From positions 62,001 through 126,000 of the forward strand of contig NZ_VAHO01000009.1 of the NCBI RefSeq assembly GCF_005796225.1: DNA of 64,000 bases. Direction: 5' to 3'. This DNA is from Pseudarthrobacter sp. NamE5 (GTDB lineage Bacteria > Actinomycetota > Actinomycetes > Actinomycetales > Micrococcaceae). Shown in pieces: positions 4,133 to 37,932 of the stretch. Positions within the stretch are counted from its first letter, which is position 1. The number at the start of each line of letters is the position of its first letter. The translations under genes and the position numbers were made by a program. The notes beneath the pieces were generated by a model. That model was not told the DNA's origin. It saw only the letters and a list, made by a program, of their open reading frames with translations, and did not search any database.

Positions 4133-5769
4133 TGTCACGGTCCGGCATGCGGGACAACCGGCGCAGGCTGGTGGTCATCGGCAACGGCATGGCAGGAGCC
4201 CGTGCCGTGGAGGAAATCCTGGCGCGCGGTGGAGCGAAGCAGTTCCGGATCACCATGTTCGGGGACGAGCCCTACGGAAACTACAACCGGATCATGCTCA
4301 GCCACGTCCTTTCCGGGGATGAGGATGACGACGCCATTTTCCTCAACCCGCTCTCGTGGTACCGGGACAACGGGATCACGCTGCATGCGGGCGTCCGGGC
4401 GAAGCGGATTGACCGCTTTACCAAGAATGTTTTTTCCAGCGATGGCAGGGTGACGCCCTATAACACCCTCATTATCGCGACCGGAAGCCGTTCCCACATG
4501 CCGCCCATGAAGGGGCTCTACACTCCGGGCGGGTCGGTGAAGCAGGGCATTTTCGGTTTCCGGACCATCGATGACACCCGCAAGATGCTGGCGTACGCGC
4601 AGCATGAGCAGCACCGGCATGCGGTGGTGATCGGGGGAGGCCTCCTTGGCCTGGAGGCTGCCTCCGGCCTCCGCCGTTATGGCCTCGAGGTGGACGTGGT
4701 GCACTCCGGCGGCCACCTGATGAGTGCGCAAATGGGGCCCGACGGCGGTGCGGTGCTCCGGAGGAGCGTGCAGGCACTGGGTATCGGGGTTTATACCGGC
4801 AGCCGGACCACTGCCGTGCTGGGAACGGACAAGGTGGCGGCTGTCCGCCTGCGGGACAGGTCCGACATCGAGTGCGACATGGTGGTGATGGCGGCCGACA
4901 TCCGGCCCAATGTGGACCTGGCGGTCCTCAGCGGGCTGCCGGTGGAACGCGCCATTGTGGTGGATGACAGCCTGCGGGTCCAGGACGAGGACGACATCTA
5001 TGCCGTGGGGGAGTGCGTCCAGCACCGGGGCCAGGTGTACGGGCTGGTGGCGCCGCTGTGGGAGCAGGCGGCCGTGCTGGCCAACCACGTCACGGGTGCG
5101 GACACGAGCGCCGCCTATCATGGCTCCCGCACGGCCACCAAGCTTAAGGTCGCCGGCATCGAGGTTGCTTCGATGGGCCTGCAGGGGCCGGAACTTGAGA
5201 CCGACGAGCAAATTGTCTTTTCAGAGCCCAGCCGCGGGGTGTTCAAGTCCATCGTGGTCCGGGACAACAAGATGGTTGGCGCCACGCTGTTGGGGGACAG
5301 CCGGAAGGTCGCCTTCCTGACGCAGGCCTTCGACCGCGGCCTGCCACTGCCCGAGGAACGTCTTGGCCTGATGTTCGACCTCGGCACGCCCGGTCAGGAA
5401 GTGGGAGTCGCGGAGCTCGACGACGACGCCCAGGTCTGCAGCACGGAGACGGGTACGAAGACCCACATCCTGGGCTTCCTGGAGCAGATCCCGGTAGGGG
5501 AGGGGCGCGCCTTCGCCGTGGACGGGAAGCAGGTGGCCGTGTTCCGGCTGCGGAACCATACACTGCGGGCGGTGTCTGCCGTCTGCCCCCACCGCGGCGG
5601 CCCGCTGGCGGACGGCACCATCGACGGGCAGGTGGTGATGTGTCCCCTGCACCAGCACGCCTTCGACCTTGCCACCGGCTGCTCCACAACAGGTGCAGGC
5701 GCGCTGCAAAGCTACCGCGTCAGGCTGGACCGGGAGCAGAACCTGGTGCTGGAAACGGTCCCCGTGTAG
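4132..5769 (+). CDS. NirB-like FAD/NAD oxidoreductase fused to a Rieske [2Fe-2S] domain
   Basis: 545 residues. Residues 10 to about 420 match the flavoprotein part of NADH-nitrite reductase large subunit: FAD-binding VVIGNGMAGARAVEE, the GNYNRIMLSHVLSG segment, NAD-binding VVIGGGLLGLEAA and the second FAD motif IYAVGECVQH. The C-terminal 100 residues form a NirD/Rieske-type domain with C485-x-H487 and C504-x2-H507. The sulfite/nitrite reductase siroheme domain of true NirB is absent, so this cannot by itself reduce nitrite. It more likely passes electrons from NAD(P)H to an unknown partner, possibly the small protein encoded just upstream. Confidence 0.85.
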   Translation: MSRSGMRDNRRRLVVIGNGMAGARAVEEILARGGAKQFRITMFGDEPYGNYNRIMLSHVLSGDEDDDAIFLNPLSWYRDNGITLHAGVRAKRIDRFTKNVFSSDGRVTPYNTLIIATGSRSHMPPMKGLYTPGGSVKQGIFGFRTIDDTRKMLAYAQHEQHRHAVVIGGGLLGLEAASGLRRYGLEVDVVHSGGHLMSAQMGPDGGAVLRRSVQALGIGVYTGSRTTAVLGTDKVAAVRLRDRSDIECDMVVMAADIRPNVDLAVLSGLPVERAIVVDDSLRVQDEDDIYAVGECVQHRGQVYGLVAPLWEQAAVLANHVTGADTSAAYHGSRTATKLKVAGIEVASMGLQGPELETDEQIVFSEPSRGVFKSIVVRDNKMVGATLLGDSRKVAFLTQAFDRGLPLPEERLGLMFDLGTPGQEVGVAELDDDAQVCSTETGTKTHILGFLEQIPVGEGRAFAVDGKQVAVFRLRNHTLRAVSAVCPHRGGPLADGTIDGQVVMCPLHQHAFDLATGCSTTGAGALQSYRVRLDREQNLVLETVPV

Positions 5770-30836: not shown

Positions 30837-31043
30837 CTACTTCTTTTCGGTCAGGGCAGAGGCCTTGTGCGCTGCCCTGGCGCCGGTCTTGTCCGACTCC
30901 ACCACGTACTGCGGTTCATCTTCGCTGGCCCGGTGCTTGTGCCCGTCCAGCTCAAAGTCGCTGGTTTTCTTTTCCACGACCTTGCCGTGCGTCTTGCCCT
31001 GCGAAGTATTCCACTCCACATGCGTTCCCTTGCTTAACGACAT
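30837..31043 (-). CDS. DUF2945 (HVA-type TUDOR) domain protein
   Basis: 68 residues, very hydrophilic. It matches DUF2945: GTHVEWNTSQGKTHGKVVEKKTSDFELDGHKHRASEDEPQYVVESDKTG. AGGAG lies before the ATG at 31043. The function is unknown; a small Tudor-like barrel is expected. It lies 8 bases after the M50 gene stop and 3 bases before the SQR-like gene, suggesting one transcript from the palindromic promoter at 34.3 kb. Confidence 0.85.
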   Translation of the reverse strand: MSLSKGTHVEWNTSQGKTHGKVVEKKTSDFELDGHKHRASEDEPQYVVESDKTGARAAHKASALTEKK

Positions 31044-31051
31044 CTGTTCTC

Positions 31052-33484
31052 CTAGCTGGGGTTTGTGGTGGGTAGGGGTTCCGCGGCCGGGGCCGTGCCC
31101 CCAGTATCCGCCGTTGGGAGCGGTGTCTCAATGGGGATGTACGACGGCGGCGCGCCGCCTGCGGGCTGTGTTGCCGGGGTGGTGGGAACCGCGGTCCCTG
31201 CCGGAGGCGGTGCCCCTCCTCCCGGTGGGTGGGTGGCAGGTGCACCGGGAGTCCCGGCGATGGCGCCCGTCGTGGTCGGCGTGGTCGTCACCGGTGCACC
31301 CGAAGGCGTGGCCGAAGCGGCGGCCTTCGTGGCGCTGGGATCAGTCTTGATGATGGCTGTGATCTGCTCCTTGTACTCGGCAAGCCGGGCCTGGATCTCC
31401 GAGAGAGGCACGTTCCGGATGTTCCGGCCATATTCTGCAATCTCTGCCCACAATGCCTTCAGCTGGGCCAGGCTGCCTTCGCCAAGCGGACCATCCAGTG
31501 TGAGGACCAGCTGGCTCGCGAGCGCGTACGTGAGGCAGTCCCGGCAGTTGTAATTGGCTGCCGCGGAGAGGTTCTCCGGGACAATGACATTCGTTTGGCC
31601 TACGACGAGGACCACTTGGAAGCCCACCGCCACGGCGGCGCAGCCGGTACAGCTGGCGAAGGCATAGGCCTCGTTCCTCGCGTCCACTGTTTCGCCGTCC
31701 TCTGCCCAAACGAGCGCAAAAGCCACACTGTAGGTAACTGTCCCGTCAGTGCTGTTCACGGCGAGTGCCTGGTTGCCGTTCTCCTCGGGCGCTGCAGGGA
31801 GGTCGAACGGGAACACCCAGGATGGTTCAGCATCGGCGGCGGTGGTGGCGGCGGATGCATGGGATCCGCCCGCAGCTGCCGCGCCCTCTACGGGGACCAG
31901 CACCATACTCAGCTGCGGGTTCTCCCTGGTTGGCTTCGCTACACCTGCGGGCCACAGTGCCACTGTCCTGCCGCTGCCGCCTTCGCGCAGCCTCACCGTG
32001 CTGCCTTGCGGGAAGAGCGAGGTTGTGGCATCAGCCAGCGTGCCGCGCTCGTAAGGCTGCACAGCACGGTACGTCCCGTCGTCGGGCCACCACGCCCAAG
32101 TGAGCCCGGCCAGCAGGGCGGCGACCGCACCCATGGCGGCGGTCCTTTGGAGGGCTTTACCGCGGGTCTTCCGCCACAGCACGGTGACCAGCTGGCGCAG
32201 CAGCCGGAGCAGGATGTACAGCATCCCCAGCATGGGAAGCGCGACAGCGATGATGGCCAGCACACGGACGCCAGCCCCTGCTAAGTCCCCGGCGGAAAGG
32301 CTCCCGGCAAACAGTTCCTGCTGCCTGGAGGCGCTCTCCCAGGCGGTGGCCAGCAGCCGCGGCAGCGCAATTACCATCAAGGCCAAACTGAGCAGCAGCA
32401 GCGGCACGGTGACCAGGACCCACGCCGTCACCACAACCCTGGCCCAAGGCTTCAGGATCCGGTTTTCCGGCTTTCCCCAGTTCCAGGGCAACAGTCCCAG
32501 GAACGTGGGCTTAATGCGCTGGAACAAGTCGGGCACGCCCGAAGCGTCAGCGAGGATGTGGTATCCGTCGAATCTCACCAGGGGGAGCAGTTGCCGGACC
32601 ATCTGCAGGATCTGGGTGACCACCACCAGCAGCAGCGCGTCGAAACCGGTGACCCACCACAACCCCATGATGACGACTGCGACGATTGCGTTGAAGTAGA
32701 GGCCGCCCAGATCGGTGCGGAGACGCCCGCCCCTGCCCAGCCTGTAGGAGTCGGTGACGTCAGTAAAAAAGGCGGGCCATACCAGATAGAGCCCCGCACC
32801 CATGGCACCTGGAGTTGCCCCGCCCCTGCGTGCGGCGGCGGCATGGCCAAACTCGTGGAAGCCGGCGGAAAGGATGGTGATGGCAAAAACCAGCAACAGC
32901 AGCGAGGGGTTCGCGAAGGCCTCGTGGGTTGCTGAACCCAGGCCCTTCACCATGAGCACCCACCAACACGTAGCCAGGAACGCCGCCGTGGCCACCGCCA
33001 CGAGCAATGGACTGAATAGGGCGGCGAACGGGGCTGTGATTGATAGGGTGCGTTCCGGATCCGTCACTGTATAGCGGAAGCGCATCCCGAGCAGCGGATC
33101 AGCCTTTTTTACCTCTGGCTGGGCACCGTCCGCCAGGCGGAGCAAACCCATCGGCAGCAACTGGGAATGCATCAGTGTCCGCACGTTGTCCGCGCTGACC
33201 AACCGCCCCGAACCCTGCGAAACGTGCTGCGCGATCTCCTCCACGCTGCGGTTTCCGTCAGCACCCTCCAGCACGAGGTAGAGCAGCCGGGTCAATTGCA
33301 GGGTCTGGCCGTCCGCCCGGCGGACCAGCGAGGGTGGTTCCCGGTAGCCGGACCCTTCGGACTGGCCCGACAGCTGCACGCCGTCGGCCCGGGCGGGAAC
33401 CTGCAGCGGGTGCCCGGCAAGAAGGGAGGCAGGGGTCGACGGCGGGCCGTCCTGAGCGCGCGGCCCGCCGGTGGCGTGGGTCAT
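31052..33484 (-). CDS. Multidomain intramembrane M50-type metalloprotease with PqqD-like N-terminus
   Basis: 810 residues. Residues 50-120 form a PqqD-like winged-helix region (LTRLLYLVLEGADGNRSVEE, then LMHSQLLPMGLL). Membrane segments start near 150. The site-2-protease zinc motif is H210-E211-x2-H214 (GFHEFGHAAA) with a third ligand candidate D306 in LVRFDGY. Further helices lie at about 345-380, 403-430 and 450-465. The outer part (about 480-700) has two CxxC pairs (C612/C615 and C647/C650), followed by a helical stretch and a Pro/Thr-rich tail. This layout recalls the putative peptide zinc metalloproteases near secreted or modified peptides. It is translated 6 bases after a duplicated partner protein. 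Confidence 0.8.
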   Translation of the reverse strand: MTHATGGPRAQDGPPSTPASLLAGHPLQVPARADGVQLSGQSEGSGYREPPSLVRRADGQTLQLTRLLYLVLEGADGNRSVEEIAQHVSQGSGRLVSADNVRTLMHSQLLPMGLLRLADGAQPEVKKADPLLGMRFRYTVTDPERTLSITAPFAALFSPLLVAVATAAFLATCWWVLMVKGLGSATHEAFANPSLLLLVFAITILSAGFHEFGHAAAARRGGATPGAMGAGLYLVWPAFFTDVTDSYRLGRGGRLRTDLGGLYFNAIVAVVIMGLWWVTGFDALLLVVVTQILQMVRQLLPLVRFDGYHILADASGVPDLFQRIKPTFLGLLPWNWGKPENRILKPWARVVVTAWVLVTVPLLLLSLALMVIALPRLLATAWESASRQQELFAGSLSAGDLAGAGVRVLAIIAVALPMLGMLYILLRLLRQLVTVLWRKTRGKALQRTAAMGAVAALLAGLTWAWWPDDGTYRAVQPYERGTLADATTSLFPQGSTVRLREGGSGRTVALWPAGVAKPTRENPQLSMVLVPVEGAAAAGGSHASAATTAADAEPSWVFPFDLPAAPEENGNQALAVNSTDGTVTYSVAFALVWAEDGETVDARNEAYAFASCTGCAAVAVGFQVVLVVGQTNVIVPENLSAAANYNCRDCLTYALASQLVLTLDGPLGEGSLAQLKALWAEIAEYGRNIRNVPLSEIQARLAEYKEQITAIIKTDPSATKAAASATPSGAPVTTTPTTTGAIAGTPGAPATHPPGGGAPPPAGTAVPTTPATQPAGGAPPSYIPIETPLPTADTGGTAPAAEPLPTTNPS

Positions 33485-33490
33485 CGGTGC

Positions 33491-34231
33491 TTACTGTTCG
33501 AGGTTTGACTGCTGGTTGGCAGAGGCGTTGGCCTCGCCCTCGATGTGCTGCGAGATGATGGCATCCTGATCGGCCACCGCGTAGGCCTGGCTGTCGATGG
33601 AGCCGATGTTGGCCGCCACTGCCGCGTCGATCGGGGCAGCCACGTTGGCGTTTGCTGCCACGGCGCCGTTGATTGGCGCGGCGATGTCGGCATCGGCGGC
33701 CAGGTCCACGTTGACGTTGAGCAGGTCTCCGTCCAGAGCTGCGGCCGGATCCACCGGCAGCGCACCGACGCCCGGGAGAGTGCCGTCCGCAAGCGTCCCG
33801 TCCGGAAGGGTGCCGTCGGTGACTGTTCCATCGGTAAGGAGGCTCCCGCCGTCGGGCGTTCCTGTTGCGGTGCCGGTGTCATCCGTGGTGCCGCCGTCGT
33901 CGATTGTGTCATTGCCCTGGTTGATGGTGCTGTCCTGGGTGGACTCGGCGTTCGCGTCGGCCACGATTCCCTGCTCGATTGAGACGCCCTGGTCCGCGAG
34001 CGCCTGGGCCTCCGAGCCGAAGGAAAGGATGTTGGCGGAGGCTGCCGCGTCAATTGGCGCCGCCACGTTGGCATTCGCGGCTACGGCCAGGTCGATGGGT
34101 GCTGCGGCATCAATGCCCAGGTCGAGGTCCGCGTTCAGGTCCAGGACGGACGCGACTTCCTTGTCCGGCAAAGCTGTGGCCTGCTCCGACATCAGTTCAT
34201 CGTCAGTCAGGGGACGCATCTCATGTTCCAT
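33491..34231 (-). CDS. Internally duplicated Ala/Asp-rich protein, partner of the M50 protease
   Basis: 246 residues from ATG 34231, with GGAGGT nine bases upstream. A polar leader-like segment (LTDDELMSEQATALPDKEVAS) precedes two similar units at about 30-104 and 170-246, each containing ANANVAAPIDAA and ending in an ADQ…Q-rich segment. A Gly/Thr/Asp-rich linker with DGTL repeats separates them. It has no classical signal peptide or membrane helix. I do not recognise the family. Its place directly before an M50/PqqD-like gene makes it the likely substrate or cargo; this is inference. The palindromic stress-type promoter lies 67 bases upstream. Confidence 0.75.
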   Translation of the reverse strand: MEHEMRPLTDDELMSEQATALPDKEVASVLDLNADLDLGIDAAAPIDLAVAANANVAAPIDAAASANILSFGSEAQALADQGVSIEQGIVADANAESTQDSTINQGNDTIDDGGTTDDTGTATGTPDGGSLLTDGTVTDGTLPDGTLADGTLPGVGALPVDPAAALDGDLLNVNVDLAADADIAAPINGAVAANANVAAPIDAAVAANIGSIDSQAYAVADQDAIISQHIEGEANASANQQSNLEQ

Positions 34232-34297
34232 GGTTATGCAACCTCCGAATCGCGCGGGTTGGTCTGCCCCCAGCGGGCAGCCCGGCACCAGCCAATA

Positions 34298-34311
34298 GTA
34301 AGCATGATTAG
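34298..34311 (-). promoter_or_regulatory. Palindromic promoter motif of the duplicated-protein/M50 operon
   Basis: GTAAGCATGATTAG on the plus strand; on the gene strand AATCATGCTTAC runs into TACTAT, a -10 hexamer, 67 bases before the ATG. Same arrangement as at glsB. Confidence 0.6.
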
Positions 34312-34376
34312 CTTTTTTGGGAATCGCGCGGTGTGCAGGGCTGGCAGCTCTTTTCATAGAGCGTTGACAGTGCCCT

Positions 34377-34565
34377 ATGCGAGGTTCAAGCTGGCGCTGT
34401 GCCTGCCTTCCCGCTGGCCGAGCCGGGCCGGCGCCAGGTGCGATTCGCAGGAGACGGGTTTTCGGCAGGCTGGCGGATCCTCTGGTCGAACGGGCACAGG
34501 GGCGTACAGTCCGCGCCAACCTTGAAACCTTGGCGGAATGGCTGTCCGGACACCCGCAGTCCTGA
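34377..34565 (+). pseudogene. Possible SRPBCC C-terminal remnant
   Basis: A 62-codon open frame. Its last 35 residues (VFGRLADPLVERAQGRTV, then RANLETLAEWLS) resemble the C-terminal helix of Polyketide_cyc2/SRPBCC proteins, while the upstream part has no matching fold in any frame. No ribosome site precedes it. It may be a decayed gene end, or chance. Confidence 0.25.
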
Positions 34566-37420: not shown

Positions 37421-37432
37421 CTTGAGTGCTAA
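37421..37432 (+). promoter_or_regulatory. Heat-shock operator half-sites upstream of hsp20
   Basis: CTTGAGT (37421-37427) equals a HAIR (HspR) half-site, and GAGTGCTAA (37424-37432) equals the right half of CIRCE (HrcA). The opposite CIRCE half nine bases upstream matches only about 4 of 9 positions. The two halves overlap, so one may be fortuitous. Confidence 0.4.
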
Positions 37433-37509
37433 AAAATCTATATCAGCCAATACAGATCGGCTGGTACCAAAAACAAGTGTTGGACCGTCTCTTACGAGGA
37501 GGGAAAGCC

Positions 37510-37932
37510 ATGTTGATGCGAACCGATCCGTTCCGCGAGCTGGACAGGCTGGCCCAGCAGGTCCTCGGCACGGCGGCGCGCCCGGCAGCGATGCCAATGG
37601 ACGCGTGGCGGGAGGACCAGGAATTTGTAGTCGCCTTTGATCTGCCCGGTGTCGCTCTGGATTCTGTGAATCTGGATGTGGAACGGAACGTCCTGACGGT
37701 ACGGGCCGAGCGCCCCGAACCTGCAGGCAAGGACACCGAATTGATCGCCTCCGAGCGGCCGCGCGGCGTATTCAGCCGCCAGCTGATCCTCGGGGACACC
37801 CTGGATACTGAGAACGTAAAGGCTACGTACGAGTCCGGTGTCCTGACCCTGCGGATTCCTGTCGCCGAAAAGGCCAAGCCGCGCAAGATCGAAATTGAGA
37901 CGAAGGGGGCAAAGCAGGAGATTGCCGCCTAG
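37510..37932 (+). CDS. Hsp20/alpha-crystallin family small heat-shock protein
   Basis: 140 residues from ATG 37510 behind GAGGAGGGA. It begins [19 protein letters not shown], then the alpha-crystallin domain (about 35-125) with [28 protein letters not shown] and the A[12 protein letters not shown] motif, and a short Lys-rich tail. It is an ATP-independent holdase chaperone forming oligomers. Heat-shock half-sites lie about 80 bases upstream. An in-frame ATG 84 bases upstream is rejected because it lacks a ribosome site and family similarity. Confidence 0.93.

Follow-up and report, generated by a model that had tools for sequence, protein, structure and literature searches.

Among the described systems, those closest to the one treated here mature a ribosomal peptide with a membrane protease: MpaP, an intramembrane peptidase that depends on a RiPP recognition element (RRE; RiPP, ribosomally synthesized and post-translationally modified peptide), strips the leaders of daptide precursors, whose leader motif is ELExMEAP (PMC10036551), and EpeP, an M50 enzyme, is sufficient for epipeptide production and is thought both to cleave and to export the epipeptide (PMC10885120). 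The present work concerns a related gene pair in 64,000 nt of Pseudarthrobacter sp. NamE5 (contig NZ_VAHO01000009.1, positions 62,001 to 126,000; hereafter the window), consisting of a precursor-like partner gene and, directly downstream of it on the minus strand, the gene for an RRE-M50 intramembrane metalloprotease (Table 1). The system looks like an undescribed route by which extracellular peptides are matured and exported under stress, in which leader-guided maturation and release of the partner by the protease is probable. Two further groups of proteins serve for comparison, namely lasso B1 and TbiB1, whose structures were determined with leader peptides, and curli (CsgA/CsgB), whose strand-turn-strand repeats show N/Q/A on a single face and occur in a second protein as well.

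Both open reading frames (ORFs) of the two-gene unit described by the first-pass annotation were recovered, directly adjacent and with 6 nt between the partner stop and the protease ATG, and the protease motifs are in place (HEFGH at residue 210, FDGY at 305, CxxC at 612 and 647). A scan of genome contigs returned 50 close loci, 65-87% identical, from Arthrobacter and Pseudarthrobacter-type genomes and one metagenome-assembled genome labelled Microbacterium, and the partner stands immediately upstream in every case (50/50). Moreover, a survey of 61 genomes of the genus placed the partner in 35 and the orthologous protease (E < 1e-195) in precisely those 35, adjacent by coordinates; the other 26 lack both. 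This joint conservation and exact co-occurrence (35/61), together with a dN/dS of about 0.1 for the partner, argue that the gene pair does not reflect chance. The surrounding genes vary, with oligopeptidase B in 38 and an FAD oxidoreductase in 18 of the 50 close loci (window copy counted), and a scan of the neighbours of the window pair found housekeeping genes. The conserved pairing that the annotation anticipated is universal in the orthologous group and takes another form in distant homologues; absence of the partner beside most homologues, which it had named as grounds for doubt, was not seen. Two loci are recorded as single cases. In L071 (G209) the partner is cut to approximately its last 57 residues and lies beside an opposite-strand aminotransferase-like ORF, and the protease frame is open to the locus end, making this a natural partner-less variant; in L043 (Arthrobacter sp. 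OVS8) the partner is intact and the protease lacks a single long open frame, through a frameshift or an assembly error.

To examine the domain anatomy of the protease, partner and protease were modelled with AF2 as one natural read-through fusion, the partner stop being read as Gly. Protease residues ~28-119 (277-368 of the fusion model) adopt a b-b-b-a-a-a order at a pLDDT of about 70-84, giving the three-stranded sheet and three helices of a winged-helix fold. In VIA-align comparisons this region matches lasso B1 (6jx3; Z 7.5, rmsd 3.0, 82/85 residues), TbiB1 (Z 7.3), TruD (Z 6.2) and CteB (Z 6.1), Z values in a range that calls for caution, with many independent RRE chains nonetheless among the matches. 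As the region also matches unrelated methyltransferases, the assignment of the fold draws on how many RRE chains match, together with the relationship of the enzyme to the daptide protease. The PqqD-like segment of the first-pass annotation was therefore retained as a fold, the structural match to RREs being found, and the Pfam PqqD model itself does not match the protease. Towards the membrane core, the best curated match is NCBIfam daptide_HExxH (E 7.7e-31, 107.6 bits, residues 51-346), Pfam M50 scores under its cut-off, and the S2P structure 3b4r matches with Z 5.4. HExxH, placed in a membrane helix, and the D-G motif distal to it, both surrounded by hydrophobic segments, provide the arrangement of an M50 site-2 protease. 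A sequence comparison of the protease with the PDB was set aside, having returned chance matches only, to haloalkane dehalogenase.

The partner has the general organization of a RiPP precursor, a genetically encoded leader followed by a core. Its two units are 56% identical across 77 residues and ANANVAAPIDAA is present in each, which confirms the internal duplication seen at first reading. In the close loci the leader keeps LPDKEVAS, both units are almost invariant and the linker is variable, and comparison with close and distant loci alike bears out the leader-like character of the N-terminus. No Pfam family was found for the partner at E<=10, hence no curlin repeat.

Beyond the genus, an eight-sequence core model of the RRE-M50 protease gave matches at E < 1e-90 in 35 of 198 sampled class genomes and 18 of 198 sampled phylum genomes by our own table count, so that a confident enzyme of this type occurs in about one-sixth of the former and one-tenth of the latter. 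The DNA upstream of the protease in 40 distant loci encodes either long two-unit partners like that of the window or, in the majority, 1-4 short peptides of ~65-90 residues, whose leaders follow the theme LxxEL...(E/T)LPx(R/K)Exx(S/L). ORFs matching the leader expression occur at 0.66/kb upstream of these 40 proteases against 0.049/kb elsewhere in the same loci (13x), and at least one leader-bearing ORF, short or long, is present in 37/37 loci whose upstream DNA is complete (L130, L138 and L162, truncated at a contig end, are excluded). In other classes of the phylum a leader ORF lies within 1.5 kb in 7 of 10 assessable loci, some with hydrophobic cores. By sequence comparison, the partner in the window corresponds to the distant short leader peptides, fused and duplicated to the size of a protein. 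Near the 40 distant proteases no tailoring enzyme, transporter or other gene is conserved besides the precursors and the CxxC protein described below.

The genome of the window strain itself holds a second copy (L003:8243-10549, contig C24), a diverged protease with 43% identity over the core, preceded by two short leader peptides, MKELSIQDLDGQQVELLPPRETLYIDGSLDLAGVMAHNTSLAVNAGSLFSNAYSAALQNVEITQH and MTTSPELSPGELDAEVVELLPARETLCCFDINISPVIAVNLSTAINAGSIGSIANAGAVQELLVLQK; a ParA/MinD-like P-loop ATPase domain is fused to the C-terminus of this RiPP-type intramembrane protease. Precursor diversity is also seen elsewhere. At L191:846-1046, L193:607 and L194:736, in other classes, the same leader is followed by a short hydrophobic core (e.g., ELPGRDLLVGISLLGIPLLGLDGLTFAVNTSGPNWLLSA); at L145:4014-5411 and L163:2515-2742 and 4413-4673 it precedes Gly/His-rich or Gly-rich precursors with a conserved C-terminal CxPASTV/CTPSTV, some of them on a Streptomyces plasmid; and in L127 and L128 it stands before Asn/Asp/Gly-rich cores (GNDVLSDNDGNFSGNFSGNEYTDNSDNS). 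Judging from composition, histidine-rich cores of the L145/L163 type could bind metal. Two Streptomyces plasmids hold the system, with every part annotated 'hypothetical protein'.

Set against the described systems, the protease resembles daptide MpaP/DapP (NF041824) in the fusion of an N-terminal RRE to a site-2 protease, and the loci resemble daptide loci in that their precursors are short, bear an N-terminal leader motif of the ExL...P type and number more than one per locus. However, a score of 107.6 against the 300-bit cut-off of NF041824 marks the enzyme as related, not the same; the leaders are of the ELLPx(R/K)E type, not ELExMEAP; no C-terminal Thr is invariant, the precursor ends varying and often being Q, H, N or G; no daptide dehydrogenase is present in the genome, and no oxidative decarboxylase, aminotransferase, methyltransferase or other modifying gene is conserved beside the 40 relatives; and the precursor here is protein-sized and duplicated, with a CxxC partner. 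Daptide membership was consequently ruled out, the precursors having neither the leader motif nor the C-terminal Thr and the modifying genes being missing. The epipeptide protease YydH/EpeP/LiaK (NF058609) is likewise an M50 membrane enzyme that matures, and is proposed to export, a ribosomal peptide, but the window protease reaches 33 bits against a cut-off of 225 and no radical-SAM epimerase or modifying gene of the epipeptide (YydF/EpeX) kind is conserved beside its relatives or was found among the scanned window neighbours, which ruled out membership here as well. With lasso B1, TbiB1, TruD and CteB the winged-helix leader-binding fold is shared, whereas the RRE is fused here to an intramembrane protease in place of a modifying enzyme. 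Neither the precursors nor the CxxC protein belong to a curated family, and the open-access literature, which may lack a paper on the subject, yielded no description of the protease family or of the upstream element considered below.

A further relationship connects the precursor cores with the outer domain of the protease. A homologue of this CxxC domain forms its own ORF directly downstream of the protease in L138, L156, L142, L126 and L158, several of these stand-alone ORFs having an evident signal peptide; in L154 and L155 the CxxC protein gene is divergent and upstream of the protease, and further cases are on record. Its repeat follows the pattern NxAxAxNxxCxxCxxxAxAxQ, and many precursor cores carry a one-face pattern, NxAxAxNxxSxxSxAxAxAxQ, of the same spacing with S for C. 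The expression A.N..[STC]..[SCATN].....A.Q matches 42 of 78 leader-regex ORFs, as against 12 of 15,600 shuffled cores and 1 of 219 other neighbour genes, a fraction that is conservative because a few of the 78 are spurious reading frames. Outside the search pattern these cores are conserved at alternate positions (-6 N, -4 A/S, +8 A, +10 A/S, +18 I/V, +20 Q), as would be expected for strands with one fixed face, and their beta hydrophobic moment exceeds that of shuffles for strand 1 only. Furthermore, in the cleanest test, the top-scoring site of a core-derived profile with the S/C positions masked coincides exactly with CxxC in 25 of 27 CxxC proteins, with a shuffle p <=0.01 in 16. The common register may reflect either common descent or mimicry. 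Since it is shared by cores and CxxC repeats, and a stand-alone secreted form exists elsewhere, the CxxC domain can be tied to the product. This preserves part of the earlier suggestion that the outer domain acts on the product; the handling role was not adopted, and the domain is read instead as a putative co-assembling or capping partner.

A link to stress comes from the DNA upstream of the pair. Window positions 34232-34380 contain the element TAAKCATGCTTA, and in the close loci TAATCATGCTTACTATTG and the inverted repeat CTGCCCGCTGGGGGCAG are conserved between variable upstream DNA and the start codon. The core TAAGCATGCTTA of the element is palindromic and the element TAAKCATGCTTACTATT partly so. 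At <=2 mismatches the genome holds 17 sites (the window and 16 others, L166-L181), against 0 for a reversed control. From their ORF sequences, we take several of the genes that follow to be of general-stress type, encoding three LEA-like proteins with KEEA repeats, a membrane protein like GlsB/YeaQ, a general stress protein of the pyridoxamine-oxidase type, and LapA- and YtxH-like proteins, and the 17 sites make up a candidate general stress regulon of Pseudarthrobacter. The stress-type promoter of the first-pass annotation thus survives in substance, as a conserved element common to stress-type genes, and not in form, a sigma-70 promoter scan upstream of the partner having given no match.

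In the leader-guided maturation favoured here, the cytosolic RRE domain would hold the partner leader (LxxEL...LPDKE) and deliver the partner to the M50 site in the membrane, where the enzyme would remove the leader, with the cut expected near the end of LPDKEVASVLDLN; the core would exit via the protease or assisted by it, a role likewise proposed for EpeP. Homology and domain layout lead us to expect that the protease of the window binds the LPDKE leader and that it cuts the precursor at the membrane, and the lack of a conserved tailoring enzyme or transporter suggests that the cores leave essentially unmodified. Outside the cell the cores, as strand-turn-strand (beta-arch) units, would associate among themselves and also bind the CxxC domain. 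That domain has the repeat of the cores, its turn occupied by cysteines, and is part of the protease here but a secreted protein of its own elsewhere; to this assembly with the CxxC domain we give somewhat less than even chances. Because the upstream element is common to general-stress-type genes in the genus, the product is probably surface or secreted stress-protective material.

Several observations weigh against this reading. The fusion model is poor outside the RRE (AF2, pLDDT 44), with no confident docking of the leader, and the outer-domain model is weak (AF2, pLDDT 53) and without a significant Foldseek match, for which reasons an attempt to name its fold was dropped. The profile-profile comparison of cores with CxxC proteins is no more than suggestive (33% probability, P 4.6e-4), the register being identical, and the core pattern is absent from the Asn-rich, Gly/His-rich and hydrophobic precursor classes. 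In addition, the cores show no obvious transmembrane character, which sets them apart from the classical substrates of site-2 proteases, and the stress-type names given to the genes after the upstream element are a reading of sequence, not a database result.

Other explanations must be weighed against the same evidence. Leader removal could give RiPP-like peptides with antimicrobial, haemolytic or signalling activity, which enzymes from other loci might modify: multi-copy short precursors with a common leader and divergent cores are typical of RiPPs, daptide MpaP is the nearest enzyme family, and homologues from other classes have hydrophobic cores. We nevertheless regard this as rather unlikely, given that no conserved tailoring enzyme or transporter lies near the 40 loci or the window pair, that the precursor of the window, with its two units and 246 aa, is under purifying selection, unlike a fast-evolving toxin, and that the CxxC partner has the register of the cores. 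M50 enzymes also take part in regulated proteolysis, and the outer domain might accordingly sense stress, and cleavage of the partner, in this view a regulator or inhibitor, would send a signal inward. The upstream element common to the pair and to stress-type genes would suit such a role, but neither Pfam nor NCBIfam recognizes a DNA-binding or sigma/anti-sigma domain in the partner, distant homologues have tandem short peptides instead, and the RRE fold indicates leader binding, all of which makes regulated intramembrane proteolysis very unlikely. Strict one-to-one pairing and the 6-nt spacing would equally suit a protective or chaperone-like subunit, co-expressed for the stability of the protease and not its substrate; against this stand the 1-4 tandem short ORFs per protease, which fit substrates and not subunits, and a leader kept while the cores diverge, so that we consider the subunit hypothesis very unlikely as well.

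A broader and more tentative proposal extends leader-guided maturation to a curli-like surface-assembly pathway across the Actinomycetota, in which beta-arch monomers would co-polymerise extracellularly on the disulfide-stapled CxxC repeat, the RRE-M50 enzyme would be the export gate, and stress would induce the whole; we consider it doubtful in this full form. The likeness to curli-type amyloid, one-face N/Q/A repeats and a second protein of the same repeat, is an analogy, and the system differs in having no Pfam match for the partner, another spacing and another export route.

The RRE-M50 copies found in annotated records are named 'hypothetical protein'. The system is a minimal one for leader recognition, with one protease, one precursor class and no tailoring enzyme, and would allow each of leader binding, cleavage within the membrane and release to be investigated by itself. 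Moreover, the repeat common to the cores and the CxxC protein leads to a testable hypothesis of extracellular assembly, and the common upstream element connects the system to stress.

Table 1. Features of the gene pair and its upstream region (window positions; residues numbered within each protein).
Feature	Position	Strand	Basis or remark
Protease ORF, RRE-M50 intramembrane metalloprotease, 810 aa	31052..33484	-	ORF, profile matches, alignment
RRE/PqqD-like winged-helix domain, residues 28-119	33128..33403	-	AF2 and structure matches
M50 (site-2 protease) membrane core, ~residues 140-440	32165..33067	-	NCBIfam, hydropathy, S2P 3b4r
HEFGH metal motif, residues 210-214	32843..32857	-	Alignment: invariant but for F212
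FDGY metal-ligand motif, residues 305-308	32561..32572	-	Sequence
Outer domain, residues 553-713	31346..31828	-	Some three repeats, each 33-35 residues long (CxxC in two of them), followed by two helices
Pro/Thr/Ala-rich C-terminal tail of protease	31052..31345	-	Alignment, sequence
Partner/precursor ORF, 246 aa	33491..34231	-	Two homologous units and variable linker
Leader region, residues 1-33	34133..34231	-	LTDDEL...ALPDKEVASVLDLN, counterpart of distant LxxEL...ELLPxRExL
Unit 1, residues 29-105	33917..34147	-	AAPIDLAVAANANVAAPIDAAASANILSFGSEAQALADQGVSIEQ...; unit comparison and alignment
Linker, residues 106-169	33725..33916	-	Variable, T/D/G/P-rich; species differ in length
Unit 2, residues 170-246	33491..33724	-	LLNVNVDLAADADIAAPINGAVAANANVAAPIDAAVAANIGSIDSQAYAVADQDAIISQ...; unit comparison and alignment
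Conserved inverted repeat CTGCCCGCTGGGGGCAG	34264..34280	-	Between element and start codon
Conserved upstream element TAATCATGCTTACTATT	34294..34310	-	62 nt ahead of partner start; 17 genomic copies

PADLOC gave no defence-system match, and a defence-system identity was accordingly dropped. On either side of the region lie genes for a 68-aa protein (30837-31043) and an Hsp20-like protein (37426-37932), which together with the upstream element suggest a stress-gene neighbourhood.

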